Below the pieces are notes generated by a model. The model was not told the DNA's origin, did not search any database, and saw only the letters and a program-made list of their open reading frames with translations. From an uncultured Candidatus Peregrinibacteria bacterium (lineage in GTDB: Bacteria; Patescibacteriota; Gracilibacteria; UBA1369), in the NCBI GenBank assembly GCA_937858825.1, contig CALMAI010000020.1:1-41871 (forward strand): 41,871 nt of DNA, in the 5' to 3' direction. The position numbers were made by a program, and so were the translations under genes. The stretch's first letter is position 1, and every line of letters begins with the position of its first letter. Of this stretch, positions 31,567 to 37,616 are shown piece by piece.

Positions 31567-32754
31567 TTATTCAATAATTTCTGATACAACACCTGCTCCA
31601 ACAGTTCGTCCACCTTCACGGATAGCAAAACGTGTTCCTGCATCAAGCGCGATTTCTGAACCGAGCTCGATTTCCATAACAACGTTGTCCCCAGGCATTA
31701 CCATTTCTGTTCCTTCTGGAAGCTGGCAAGAACCAGTTACGTCTGTTGTTCGGATGTAGAACTGTGGCTTGTATCCTTTGAAGAATGGAGTGTGTCGTCC
31801 ACCTTCTTCCTTTGTCAAAACATAGATTTCAGCCTTGAACTTCTTGTGTGGCTTAATTGTTCCTGGCTTACAAATAACCTGTCCACGAACAATGTCGTCA
31901 CGTTCAATACCTCGAAGGAGAAGTCCAACGTTGTCACCAGCCTGACCTTGATCAAGAAGTTTCTTGAACATTTCAACACCAGTTACTACAACTTTTTGAG
32001 TTGGCTTAATTCCAACGATTTCAACTTCTTCATTCACCTTAACAACACCAGCGTCAACCTTACCAGTTGCAACTGTTCCACGTCCCTTAATAGAGAACAC
32101 GTCCTCTACAGGCATAATGAATGGCTTGTCGAGGTCACGTACTGGGTCTGGGATGTAGCTATCAAGAGCATCAAGAAGTTCCTGAATTGGCTTGGTAGCT
32201 TCAGCGTCGTCGAGGTTTTCGAGAGCCTTAAGGGCAGAACCCTTAATAACTGGAGTGTTGTCTCCGTCGAAGTCGTACTTTTTTAGAAGGTCTCGAACTT
32301 CGATTTCTGAAAGTTCAGCAATTTCAGGATCAGCCATGTCCATCTTGTTCAAGAAGACAACGATCTTTGGTACCATCACCTGCTTTGCAAGAAGGATGTG
32401 CTCACGAGTTTGTGGCATTGGTCCGTCTGCAGCAGATACTACGAGAATCGCACCGTCCATTTGAGCCGCACCAGTAATCATGTTCTTAACGTAGTCGGCG
32501 TGTCCTGGACAGTCCACGTGAGCGTAGTGTCGCTTTTCTGTTTCGTACTCTTGGTGAGATGTAGCAATAGTAATACCACGTGCCTTTTCTTCCGGCGCGT
32601 TATCAATATCCGCATATGATCGAGCTTGAGCCATTCCCTTCTTAGCACAGTAAGATGCAATAGCTGCTGTCAAAGTTGTTTTACCATGGTCAACGTGTCC
32701 AATAGTTCCGACGTTAACGTGTGGTTTTGATCGGTCAAATTTTTGATCTGCCAT
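31567..32754 (-). CDS. tuf: Elongation factor Tu
   Basis: EF-Tu delivers aminoacyl-tRNA to the ribosome in a GTP-dependent way. The 395-residue protein has the GTPase motifs GHVDHGKT (19-26), the switch I region with [19 protein letters not shown] and GSALKAL, followed by two beta-barrel domains. It leads the S10 block; rpsL, rpsG and fusA are not upstream in the same operon. Upstream of the ATG the message contains ACCTCCC, the opposite of an SD sequence. Confidence 0.99.
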
Positions 32755-32887
32755 AATAATTGGGAGGTTAAGGTTTTTTTAAATTGATTTCCTTCTTAAG
32801 TTTCTCCACTTTTGGGTGCTCAATTTTTCTTTTGTTGGAGAGGAAAATTGGCAGTCGTTAAGTGGTGCATTAAAGAAATGCGAAGAG

Positions 32888-32916
32888 ATACTATAGGAAA
32901 TGAAATGCTAATGCAA
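32888..32916 (-). promoter_or_regulatory. Promoter of the tuf-ribosomal operon
   Basis: The minus strand reads TTGCAT (32911-32916), 17 bp, then TAGTAT (32888-32893); an overlapping TATAGT (32890-32895) gives a 15-bp spacer. It is followed by a leader of about 130 bases to the tuf ATG. This is the main promoter for the long ribosomal block. Confidence 0.6.
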
Positions 32917-32961
32917 GGGGTTTTTTTAGATTTTCTTATGGTTTTTGTGCGATGTTTCAAT

Positions 32962-32994
32962 AAAAAGAAGACGCCTTAGAGTAGGCGTCTTCTT
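32962..32994 (-). terminator. Intrinsic terminator of fusA
   Basis: AAGAAGACGCC (32965-32975) and GGCGTCTTCTT (32984-32994) form an 11-bp perfect stem with an 8-base loop. On the minus strand the stem is followed by a T run (A at 32962-32966 on the plus strand). It lies 24 bases after the fusA stop and separates fusA from the tuf promoter. Confidence 0.85.
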
Positions 32995-33017
32995 GAGCTT
33001 GTTCTTTGTGCTGTTTT

Positions 33018-35105
33018 TTACTCGTCTGCTTTGGATGTTGCTCCACGTTCTTCTTTAATCTTTTCGGCAACGTTGTTTGGTACTTTGTCGTATTTTTCGA
33101 ACTCCATTGCGTAGGCGGCACGACCTTGAGACATAGATCGGAGGTCGGTTGCGTATCCGAACATTTCTGAGAGTGGAACGTAAGCGTTGATGAACTTGGC
33201 CATTCCACGGTCTCCAGTTTCGTAGATTTGTCCACGTCGTGAGTTAAGGTTACCCATAACGTCTCCGAAGAATTCGTCTGGAGTAGTGACCTCAACTTTC
33301 ATGATTGGTTCAAGAAGAGCTGGGCTTGCCTGTCGGGCAGCTTTTTGGAAGGCGAGAGATCCCGCAACCTTAAAGGCCATTTCGTTCGAGTCGACGTCGT
33401 GGTATGAACCGTCGTAGAGTTCAACTTTTACGTCTACGATTGGGTATCCGGCTACGACACCACGTGTCATTGCTTCCTGAATACCTTTGTCTACTGCAGG
33501 GATGTACTCTCGAGGAATTTTACCTCCAACAATGTTGTTCACGAATTCGTATCCTTTTCCTGCTTCGTTTGGTTCTACCTTAATAAGGACGTGTCCGTAT
33601 TGACCACGACCACCAGTTTGTTTCACATACTTTTCTTCTGCCTGTACCGGGTTTTGGAGTGTTTCCCGGTAAGCAACCTGCGGTCGTCCGATGTTCGCTT
33701 CGACCTTAAATTCACGTTTCATTCGGTCTACGAGAATGTCGAGGTGAAGTTCTCCCATACCAGAGATAAGTGTCTGGCTGGTTTCTTCGTCGGTTTGAAC
33801 CCGGAAGGTTGGATCTTCTTCGGCAAGTTTTTGGAGAGCCATACCCATCTTTTCCTGGTCGGCTTTGGTCTTTGGTTCGATAGCAATTTGGATAACTGGT
33901 TCCGGGAAGGTGATTGATTCAAGAAGAATCGGTGCGTTTTCCGCAGAAAGAGTTTGTCCGGTTCGAACGTTCTTGAGTCCGACTACCGCCGCGATGTCTC
34001 CGGCTTTTACCTGTTTGATCTCTTTTCGGTCGTTTGAGTGCATTTGAAGGAGACGGCTGATGCGTTCTTTGTCTCCGGTTGATGCGTTCAGTGCGTATGA
34101 TCCAGAGTCAACCTTTCCAGAGTACACACGGATGTATGCAAGTTTTCCAACGAATGGATCGGTTGCAATTTTAAAGACGAGAGCGGCGAACGGTTTTGTT
34201 TCGTCTGAAGGTCGTTCTTCTACTTCTTCTGTGTCTGGGTTTGTTCCTTTAATAGGTGGAACATCAAGTGGTGATGGAAGGAAATCGTTTACAGCATCCA
34301 AAACTTTTTGCACACCTTTGTTCGCAAGTGAGCTTCCACAGTAAACCGGGAAGAGTTTGGTCGCGATAACACATCGGCGGAGTCCAGCTTTGAGTTCTTC
34401 AACGCTGATCTCTTCTCCTTCAAGGAATTTTTCCATAACTGCGTCGTCGTTTTCAGCAATTTTTTCAACGAGGATTGCCCGGTACTCTTCCATTTGTTCT
34501 TTTAAATCTTCTGGTACTTCCGCTTCGAGAACGTTTTCTCCCATGTCTCCAGAGAATTTGTAGGCTTGTCTTTCAAGAAGATCGACAACTCCTTCAAATG
34601 AGCTTTCGAATCCAATTGGAAGTTGGGCTGCAACTGCGTGTGGGTTAAGTCGGTCGTGTACTGATTTAAGACTCATGAAGAAGTCAGCTCCAATTTTGTC
34701 CATCTTATTCACAAACGCGATTCGGGGTACTCCATACTTGTCGGCTTGTCGCCATACAGTTTCTGATTGTGGTTCTACACCTTGCGATCCGTCGAAAACC
34801 ACAACTCCTCCATCCAAAACACGCATAGAACGTTCTACTTCGGCGGTGAAGTCTACGTGACCTGGAGTGTCGATAATGTTGTATCGGCAGTCTTTCCATT
34901 CACATGTTGTTGCGGCTGATGTAATGGTGATTCCACGTTCTCGCTCTTGTTCCATCCAGTCCATGGTGGCAGCACCTTCGTGTACTTCTCCGATTTTGTA
35001 GGTGATTCCGGTGTAAAAAAGAATACGTTCTGTGGTTGTTGTTTTACCGGCATCAATGTGGGCGATAATCCCAAAGTTCCGGAGTTTGCGAAGGTCTTCA
35101 GACAT
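33018..35105 (-). CDS. fusA: Elongation factor G
   Basis: EF-G drives translocation and, with RRF, ribosome recycling. The 695-residue protein has [19 protein letters not shown] (15-33), the switch region [44 protein letters not shown] and [10 protein letters not shown]. It continues with the five-domain order typical of FusA1 ([28 protein letters not shown], and a domain V with NSRRGQI). It stands as a one-gene unit with its own promoter and terminator, not in the usual rpsL-rpsG-fusA-tuf order. Confidence 0.99.
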
Positions 35106-35185
35106 GTGGATATATAAAGGTTAAATAAGATATGGTTGTTTTTGAGCGATAATCGCACAAGAAAGCCCCTGAAAAGGGCCTTGGT

Positions 35186-35213
35186 ATTATAGGTATGGGA
35201 AGCGGGAAGTCAA
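35186..35213 (-). promoter_or_regulatory. Promoter of fusA
   Basis: The minus strand reads TTGACT (35208-35213), 16 bp, then a perfect TATAAT (35186-35191). The transcript would start near 35179. Its leader of about 75 bases begins around an imperfect hairpin (35163-35182; AAG-CCC with GGG-CTT, one mismatch). Confidence 0.75.
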
Positions 35214-35234: not shown

Positions 35235-35648
35235 TTATAATCTCTCTTCCAGCTTTTTGACGCACTTAAGAACGAGGTCGCGGTTTTTGGCAGATTTGAT
35301 CCATTGGGGAAGACGGCTTTCGATGCTTTGGTTGGACCATCCGCTTTCTGGGTCTTTGGTTCTTTCGCGAAGTTTGGCGCTTACGTACTCCTTAATATAT
35401 TGGAGGTGTTCGGGGTTGAGTGCCCAGAGTTCGTGACGGCCGCAACGGGTGCGGAGCCAGAGTTTTGGGAAGTAGGTGTGGATGGGGAGGGATCCTTTTT
35501 TTGTGTATGAGCAGGCGGTGCAGGTGAGTTGTTTGTCGTTGGCAGTTTTGCGAATAACTGCCTTTTTGTCGCACTTTGGACAGTGGATGAAGACGGTGTC
35601 GTATAGTTCGTAGAGTGTTTTTCCTTTTGATTTGAATCTGGAGATCAT
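35235..35648 (-). CDS. Zinc-ribbon protein of unknown function
   Basis: The 137-residue protein has an N-terminal zinc ribbon with Cys23-x2-Cys26 (HCPKC) and Cys43-x2-Cys46 (CTAC). A middle segment reads LWLRTRCGRHELWALNPEHL. The helical C terminus has KLRERTKDPESGWSNQSIESRLPQWIKSAKNRD. I believe small proteins of this zinc-ribbon plus SRLPxWxKSAKNR type exist in other bacteria, but I know no function. The ribbon resembles those in transcription or translation factors. The gene starts about 30 bases after the terminator-like hairpin of a structured leader or ncRNA, which may control it. No SD is present. Confidence 0.8.
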   Translation of the reverse strand: MISRFKSKGKTLYELYDTVFIHCPKCDKKAVIRKTANDKQLTCTACSYTKKGSLPIHTYFPKLWLRTRCGRHELWALNPEHLQYIKEYVSAKLRERTKDPESGWSNQSIESRLPQWIKSAKNRDLVLKCVKKLEERL

Positions 35649-35678: not shown

Positions 35679-35746
35679 AAAAAGGCGGCAAGGTCGGGCG
35701 TGGTCGGAGCAGGATTGCCCGAATCACGCGCTGTGACTTTGCCGCC
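35679..35746 (-). terminator. Terminator-like hairpin with T5 ending the structured RNA
   Basis: GGCGGCAA (35684-35691) pairs with TTGCCGCC (35739-35746). The stem continues with GTC/GAC after one mismatch. An inner stem has GCGTG/CACGC (35698-35702 with 35725-35729). On the minus strand five T follow directly. As a plus-strand RNA the mismatches would be G-U pairs, so the fold exists on both strands, but only the minus strand has the T-tract. Confidence 0.6.
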
Positions 35747-35932
35747 TGGCGCCCGAGCGTGCGGGAACCGTTGCCTCTGAAATGTGGGGTGGAGGGGGAT
35801 TAGCCCTCCGTTAGACGAGGATCACCCCCTCTCGGTTGTGGATTGAAACCGAAAATGGTTTTTTGAGGATCATCGTCATTACTCCCGGGAAGAGAGCCCG
35901 GCGGAATTGCCGAACTGTCACCTGATGAGGCG
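35679..35932 (-). ncRNA. Candidate structured RNA or riboswitch-like leader, about 250 nt
   Basis: The 425-base gap 35649-36073 has no gene but a GC-rich, highly folded block. A consensus promoter on the minus strand (TTGACA, 17 bp, TTATAC) would start transcription near 35932. The RNA would end in a long hairpin followed by five U at 35679. In between are CCGGG/CCCGG (35885-35889 with 35897-35901), GGAGGG/CCCTCC (35791-35796 with 35804-35809), GGGGTG/CACCCC (35786-35791 with 35823-35828) and AACCG/CGGTT (35766-35770 with 35833-35837). CGGTT has a second partner at 35847-35851, so it could switch. I could not match it to RNase P, tmRNA, SRP, 6S or a common riboswitch class. It lies just upstream of the zinc-ribbon gene. 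Confidence 0.6.
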
Positions 35933-35938
35933 GTAGAG

Positions 35939-35967
35939 GTATAACTTCTTGGTCATAAATTTGTCAA
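35939..35967 (-). promoter_or_regulatory. Promoter of the structured RNA
   Basis: The minus strand reads TTGACA (35962-35967), a perfect -35, exactly 17 bp, then TTATAC (35939-35944). An overlapping TATACC gives an 18-bp spacer. It points into the folded block, not towards the atp operon. Confidence 0.65.
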
Positions 35968-36009
35968 ATGTATAAAAAGATATTCATGAGAATTTAAAAT
36001 TTTTCAGTA

Positions 36010-36038
36010 TTGATTTTTTTAAAAAGTGGGCCTAAACT
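36010..36038 (+). promoter_or_regulatory. Promoter of the atp operon
   Basis: TTGATT (36010-36015), 17 bp, then TAAACT (36033-36038). The predicted start near 36045 leaves about 29 bases before the first ATG. The surrounding sequence 35941-36073 is AT-rich, typical of a promoter. Confidence 0.55.
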
Positions 36039-36073
36039 CTTTCCGACCAAAAATTAAGGGTCAATAATTTTTT

Positions 36074-36349
36074 ATGTCAATTTTCTTGAAAGACGAGGCA
36101 AAAAATAAAGAGGCACTCAATAAAGATGAGCAGGAAAATGCAGCTCATATGGATAAGTTTGCAAAAAAAAGAATTCAGGCACATCTGAACATTGTTCTGA
36201 TCTCTGCTCTTGTGGCCGGGATTGCTGCTTTGATTGGTTACGGAATTGACAGTGTTATGGGAACCAGGCCTATCGCGATTATTGCCGCGGTGCTGCTTTC
36301 TTTCCCGTTGGCGCAGTTTGTGATTATTAAACGATTACGTTCTCTTTAA
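36074..36349 (+). CDS. AtpI/AtpZ-like ATP synthase assembly protein
   Basis: The 91-residue protein has a charged N terminus (about 35 residues) and two membrane helices. The second follows GYGIDSVMGTRPIAII. This fits the small AtpI/AtpZ (F-ATPase gene 1) family at the head of atp operons, which helps c-ring assembly or Mg2+/Ca2+ uptake. Sequence identity in the family is low, so the naming rests on position, size and the two-helix pattern. It begins without SD and is followed by atpB after 5 bases. Confidence 0.7.
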   Translation: MSIFLKDEAKNKEALNKDEQENAAHMDKFAKKRIQAHLNIVLISALVAGIAALIGYGIDSVMGTRPIAIIAAVLLSFPLAQFVIIKRLRSL

Positions 36350-37217: not shown

Positions 37218-37457
<240 letters not shown>

Positions 37458-37468
37458 TTTTATTTTGA

Positions 37469-37543
37469 GGGTGTTGGCGTCGAAAATTCGTCCTCACTGT
37501 ATGTTTCAATACAGTCTCGTCTGAATTTTCTCGCCGCCTACCC
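37469..37543 (+). promoter_or_regulatory. Large hairpin between atpE and atpF
   Basis: In the 159-base gap, ACTGTAT (37496-37502) pairs perfectly with ATACAGT (37509-37515). GAAAATTC (37482-37489) pairs with GAATTTTC (37523-37530), GGCG (37476-37479) with CGCC (37532-37535) and GGGT (37469-37472) with ACCC (37540-37543). No T-tract follows, so it looks like an mRNA stabiliser or processing site behind atpE, fitting the need for many c subunits. Confidence 0.6.
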
Positions 37544-37566
37544 AAAGTAGAAACTATTTCAACAAA

Positions 37567-37580
37567 GTGCTGAACAGCAC
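37567..37580 (+). repeat. Second inverted repeat before atpF
   Basis: GTGCTGAACAGCAC is an inverted repeat (GTGCT and AGCAC around GAAC), 37 bases before the atpF ATG. It could fold next to the large hairpin. Confidence 0.4.
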
Positions 37581-37616
37581 GTGGAACACACACATTAATT
37601 ATTTACGCGAATCATT

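Follow-up and report, generated by a model that had tools for sequence, protein, structure and literature searches.

The window analysed here is a 41,871-nt stretch, contig CALMAI010000020.1 from an uncultured Candidatus Peregrinibacteria bacterium, and it carries on its minus strand, at about 35934-35679, some 255 nt of dense inverted repeats with a putative promoter on the 5′ side and a terminator hairpin on the 3′ side. A divergent atp operon, of which atpI is the nearest gene, flanks the block on one side; on the other lies a zinc-ribbon gene (35235-35648, minus strand, 137 aa), beyond which stands EF-G (fusA), identified from its translated sequence. The block recurs in another species of the genus, represented by the Candidatus Peregrinibacteria MAG contig JAGQLQ010000011.1, where it likewise lies between atpI and the zinc-ribbon gene.

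Sequence inspection places the putative promoter at 35938-35967 of the minus strand, where TTGACA (35967-35962) and TATACC (35943-35938) are separated by an 18-nt spacer. The initial annotation had proposed the same -35 element, which stands, together with TTATAC (35944-35939) as the -10 at a spacing of 17, for which a better register lies one base over; TTATAC agrees with TATAAT at only two of six positions, and the hexamer kept by the sister species is TATACC. In pairwise comparison both TTGACA and TATACC are identical in the two species, and a consensus promoter scan at its cut-offs did not list the 35967-35938 site. The promoter belongs to an AT-rich, conserved, unstranded region (35946-36075) that extends from the divergent atp operon to the RNA gene and contains A/T tracts resembling an UP element. 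Between the two species, positions 36000-36099 share about 99% identity, which stays nearly as high down to the -35, unlike the atpE-atpF gap, which is about 70% identical; the roughly 130 bases before the RNA, nearly identical where other intergenic DNA is not, are probably a dense regulatory region serving both directions. At the opposite end, the run of five T residues described earlier is present at 35683-35679, is preceded by a 63-nt hairpin, and ends 30 nt before the ATG (35648) of the zinc-ribbon gene on the same strand.

The predicted transcript, of about 253-256 nt (35679-35934, minus strand), has A35934 and G35931 as candidate purine starts. Its inverted repeats fold more stably than chance: the minimum free energy is -104.8 kcal/mol, whereas dinucleotide-shuffled sequences average -80.9 +/- 4.5 (z -5.3; 0/200), and the copy in the sister species likewise folds more stably than its shuffles (z -4.5). 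An invariant 5′ segment (35919-35933), identical in both species, is predicted to form a local hairpin, CGCCU-CAUC-AGGUG, and has a computed alternative in which CCGCCU (35933-35928) pairs with AGGCGG (35747-35742). Next in the consensus structure comes a seven-pair hairpin, AGUUCGGC/GCCGGGCU (35895-35916), marked by a U-G to C-G change. A central arm (35814-35877) follows, built on a GACGA-GAUC stem (35877-35865/35826-35814) and bearing a hairpin (35858-35848/35836-35827) with a conserved CAAYCCA loop; three of its pairs, 35875-35816, 35853-35832 and 35848-35836, show double compensatory changes. Two shorter hairpins lead on from there: the almost invariant GGAGGG-CUAAUCC-CCCUCC (35791-35809; six pairs, with G-C to G-U at 35809-35791) and, after an invariant GCAACGG, a CCCG...CGGG hairpin (35748-35769) in which the pair 35765-35752 shows a double compensatory change, from C-G to U-A.

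The last domain (35679-35747) is the terminal hairpin with its U5 tract, a putative intrinsic terminator interrupted by internal loops and capped by a conserved apical GGGCA...UGC loop. It contains five double compensatory pairs (35740-35690, 35739-35691, 35729-35698, 35725-35702 and 35721-35705), among whose substitutions are A-U to U-A, A-U to C-G and G-C to U-A. The two competing partners that had been ascribed to one internal segment are also present: AACCG (35837-35833) can pair with CGGTT at 35850-35846, within the hairpin, or with CGGTT at 35770-35766 downstream. The corresponding UGCUG of the sister species can still pair with both partners (CGGC-, and CGGCG through two G-U pairs); as evidence, this 5-bp alternative pairing is weak.

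The sister copy aligns over 269 bases at 73% identity, and the two copies differ mostly by substitutions that preserve pairing. Across 10 kb the identity of the two species is 91.5%, and the RNA, at 67-69% identity per 100 bases, diverges to the same degree as other intergenic DNA. In the two-sequence consensus, 72 pairs comprise nine changed on both sides, nine changed on one side and 54 unchanged, with none broken, and all nine one-sided changes are tolerated through G-U pairing on the minus strand. That no pair is broken partly reflects the choice of pairs made by RNAalifold, and a shuffled null was therefore used, consisting of 500 column shuffles of the transcript-only alignment that kept the pattern of matches and mismatches. 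Against this null, the consensus energy of -84.4 kcal/mol compares with -41.7 +/- 4.8 for shuffles (z -8.9), and the 11 double compensatory pairs observed compare with 3.6 +/- 1.9, a count that none of the 500 shuffles reaches. When the 10-kb alignment was scanned as 196 windows of 200 nt, the RNA locus ranked first for structure signal. The proposal of a structured RNA is upheld, and the suggested check for conservation and covariation came out in its favour in this one relative, in whose copy the structure is kept by compensatory changes. Evidence that the locus encodes a conserved structured RNA, and that the minus strand is the correct one, is strong.

The same data bear on whether an RNA is made here at all. 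Palindromic, GC-rich DNA that is never transcribed, a mobile repeat or a chance product of assembly might also fold well, and the plus strand is indeed stable in the 200-nt scan (z -6.0). The minus strand nevertheless scores better (z -8.5), bears the promoter and the U tract, and has G-U pairs in 15 of 144 cells, which on the plus strand would be A-C mismatches; moreover, the element is present in a single copy and recurs at the same place, with compensatory changes, in the assembly of a second species. We consider this explanation the least probable of those weighed here. A coding sequence can be set aside because the two copies differ by gaps of one and two bases.

With respect to known RNA families, a search of Rfam release 15, as suggested in the initial annotation, returned no match at the gathering score, and relaxed scans (E up to 10) gave only chance-level matches of at most 17.4 bits. 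The earlier failure to fit the sequence to RNase P, tmRNA, SRP or 6S RNA is made firmer by searches of the genome. Its RNase P RNA (RF00010) lies on contig C23 (133.7 bits) and its tmRNA (RF00023) on contig C32 (112.4 bits), both away from the present locus, while a match to 6S RNA (RF00013) at C4:22624-22784, which scores 39.9 bits, under the 46.4 cut-off, and has equivalents in several relatives, is probably the 6S RNA. Because the genome has these RNAs elsewhere (the 6S RNA probably so), the locus is none of the three.

SRP RNA was a candidate by length and by the silence of the SRP models across the order: neither RF00169 nor RF01854 matched in 17 genomes of the order, whereas all or most control genomes were positive. 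The candidate was rejected, however, because the Ffh M domain (PF02978, SRP_SPB) was also not detected in the window's genome, so that an SRP RNA is not expected here. This finding agrees with the reported absence of SRP subunits in many CPR bacteria (PMC8080830), and the SRP pathway seems, from these searches, to have been lost here. A strongly diverged 6S, RNase P, tmRNA or SRP RNA would suit the length and compact fold of the element, and neither Rfam model supplies an SRP RNA; yet even relaxed searches match the locus to none of these four families. Together with the location of the other housekeeping RNAs elsewhere and the missing Ffh domain, this largely refutes such an identity, which we regard as very improbable.

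The distribution of the RNA is narrow. BLAST searches of 59 relatives yielded a credible copy only in the one other genus member; a third match, of 29 bases in relative G023 (E 0.007), is attributable to chance and finds no support from the covariance model. That model, R1, was built from the two sequences, on account of which very diverged copies could be missed. Across 89 genomes of the order and, with laxer filters, 13 genomes of the family, it matched the two genus members and no other, and in a 380-genome sample of the phylum that did not include the sister species it matched only the window's own genome, where the RNA is single copy. No diverged copy above chance level was present around atpB in 15 relatives. 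Viral contigs contained scattered exact matches to the conserved islands, none with the RNA, and no copy was found in plasmids and phages. In the papers searched, we came across no account of RNAs of this kind in Peregrinibacteria.

The zinc-ribbon gene downstream encodes a protein with a CPKC...CTAC arrangement and a C-terminal LPQWIKSAKNRD motif. The protein is 96% identical in the sister species, and the gene was not found in the other 57 relatives searched. Distant homologues (35-40% identity) occur in Bacteroidota and Acidobacteriota, and those of other phyla have no such RNA alongside. Pfam and NCBIfam give only sub-threshold zinc-ribbon matches; the family, unnamed, scattered over Bacteroidota, Acidobacteriota and one Peregrinibacteria genus and sharing the C-terminal LPQWIKSAKNRD, lacks a curated entry. 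A role in defence, raised by one weak PADLOC match (HEC-08, E 0.0009), was discarded, the similarity being confined to the ribbon and read as generic. Inspection by eye suggests that the gene may have its own, weak, -10 just before the ATG (TGCTATCCT / TGCTAATCT). Also by eye, almost no Shine-Dalgarno sequence precedes the called genes across positions 302-41871 of the window, so that initiation of translation in this genome may be independent of such sequences.

Several neighbouring gaps drew attention in their own right. Between the zinc-ribbon gene and fusA (35213-35105, minus strand), a near-consensus promoter, TTGACT-16-TATAAT, is followed directly by a GGCCCTTTTCAGGGGC hairpin; conservation of positions 35100-35199 in the sister species is almost 100%, and the element is possibly an attenuator of fusA. 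Downstream of fusA, the stretch before the following gene (32725-33024) gives consensus folds more stable than those of shuffles, with z -4.7 and -4.2, a signal whose reading is limited by the high identity there, at about 94-99%. The stretch separating atpE from the next atp gene (37422-37585), only 60% identical, reaches z -4.0 on the minus strand, with four compensatory pairs against 1.35 expected.

How might the RNA act? We favour a free-standing small RNA gene over an attenuator of the zinc-ribbon gene, and hold that view with an evenly balanced confidence. RNA polymerase would start at the promoter (35967-35938), divergently from the ATP-synthase operon, and the transcript of about 255 nt would fold into five or six helical domains before transcription stopped at the terminal hairpin and its U5 tract (35679); the folded RNA itself would be the product, presumably independent of the zinc-ribbon gene. 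Most likely it would act by binding or scaffolding protein, with a protein partner implied, rather than by pairing with messages, because its helices are kept while their letters change and because it is too structured to expose a long antisense region. The covariation statistics (z -8.9, 11 double compensatory pairs, the top rank among 196 windows) speak for this reading, as do the nine one-sided changes that G-U pairing accommodates, the single copy in the genome and a terminal hairpin far longer and better conserved than termination needs. A hairpin of this size, whose apical loop is conserved and five of whose pairs covary, is what would be expected if it were also a domain of the mature RNA. 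Likewise in favour are the conservation, at about 99%, of the promoter and upstream DNA, the lack of the RNA beside zinc-ribbon homologues elsewhere, and the gene's possible, weak, -10.

Counting against a free-standing RNA are its occurrence in just two known sequences, the zinc-ribbon gene that follows 30 nt downstream on the same strand, and the confinement of both RNA and gene to one genus among the relatives searched. In addition, computed folds indicate that the 5′ end could form a helix that excludes the terminator, which forms the core of the attenuator alternative, that of a 5′ leader controlling the zinc-ribbon gene as an ON switch; we treat it as a serious possibility falling somewhat short of even. 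Here CCGCCU (35933-35928) and AGGCGG (35747-35742) would close the multi-branched domain in the manner of an aptamer P1 helix, and AGGCGG would double as the 5′ arm of the terminator, so that a closed domain, stabilised by a proposed ligand or protein, would allow read-through and an open one would lead to termination. Gene order and spacing fit. Folds that end before the 3′ arm of the terminator form the helix with a probability of 0.65-0.97 for the window species and close to 1.0 for its relative, and this drops to 0 in the full transcript; the helix also appears in the two-species consensus fold. When the 20-nt 5′ block was shuffled, 3/600 sequences equalled the observed strength, and a weaker version arose in 141/600. 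Within the terminator stem, the part with two partners is invariant and the outer three pairs covary.

The helix is, however, sensitive to the transcription start. In the window species it requires initiation at or upstream of C35933, and its probability falls to about 0.01 from G35931, which lies seven nt after the -10, a normal distance; it forms in both species from C35933 or upstream, and from G35931 in the relative it is unstable and varies with transcript length. Both strands of CCGCCU/AGGCGG are invariant and for that reason yield no covariation, and invariance over five pairs could be chance. Distant zinc-ribbon homologues also lack such an RNA, and that RNA and gene are neighbours in both species says little for or against either reading, the contigs being collinear throughout these 10 kb. 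The free-standing RNA and the leader do not fully exclude each other: any leader at which most transcripts terminate would produce a stable RNA as well. Support for any particular mechanism is no more than moderate.

Comparison with known systems sets these readings in context. In ON-type transcriptional riboswitches such as the adenine pbuE leader, the 5′ arm of the terminator is shared with the closing helix of the aptamer. The present RNA resembles them in having a large multi-helix domain that a 5′-end helix can close, with a 3′ strand that is the terminator 5′ arm, and in the position of the terminator just before a start codon; it differs in matching no Rfam riboswitch, in an aptamer-like part larger than most, in having no association with a gene family across species, and in a closing helix that depends on the start site. 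Like 6S RNA (RF00013), it would, on the favoured reading, be a structured RNA that stands alone between a promoter and a terminator of its own, but it has a multi-branched fold where 6S RNA is one long bulged hairpin, it shows no match, and a probable 6S RNA is encoded elsewhere in the genome. Its length is similar to that of the large bacterial SRP RNA (RF01854, about 256 positions), to which it gives no match even at a relaxed E-value. OLE, raiA and ROOL are orphan large structured bacterial RNAs, and the present RNA, itself an orphan, shares with them an elaborate fold, a narrow spread and, on the favoured reading, independence; it differs from them in matching nothing in Rfam release 15 by sequence or structure and in being known from two species only.

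The locus is thus a genuine structured RNA, supported by covariation, that is not in Rfam and is known from two species of one genus. We suggest, tentatively and as a rather doubtful proposition, that it is a new class of large structured RNA restricted to one Peregrinibacteria lineage, which would serve as a scaffold for a ribonucleoprotein or as a riboswitch whose novel aptamer fold senses something linked to the zinc-ribbon protein. At 255 nt it is a well-defined object for RNA-seq, structure probing and pull-down. Peregrinibacteria are bacteria with reduced genomes, and a covarying RNA, equipped with promoter and terminator, in one that apparently has no SRP suggests that such genomes carry lineage-specific RNAs missed by the curated library.
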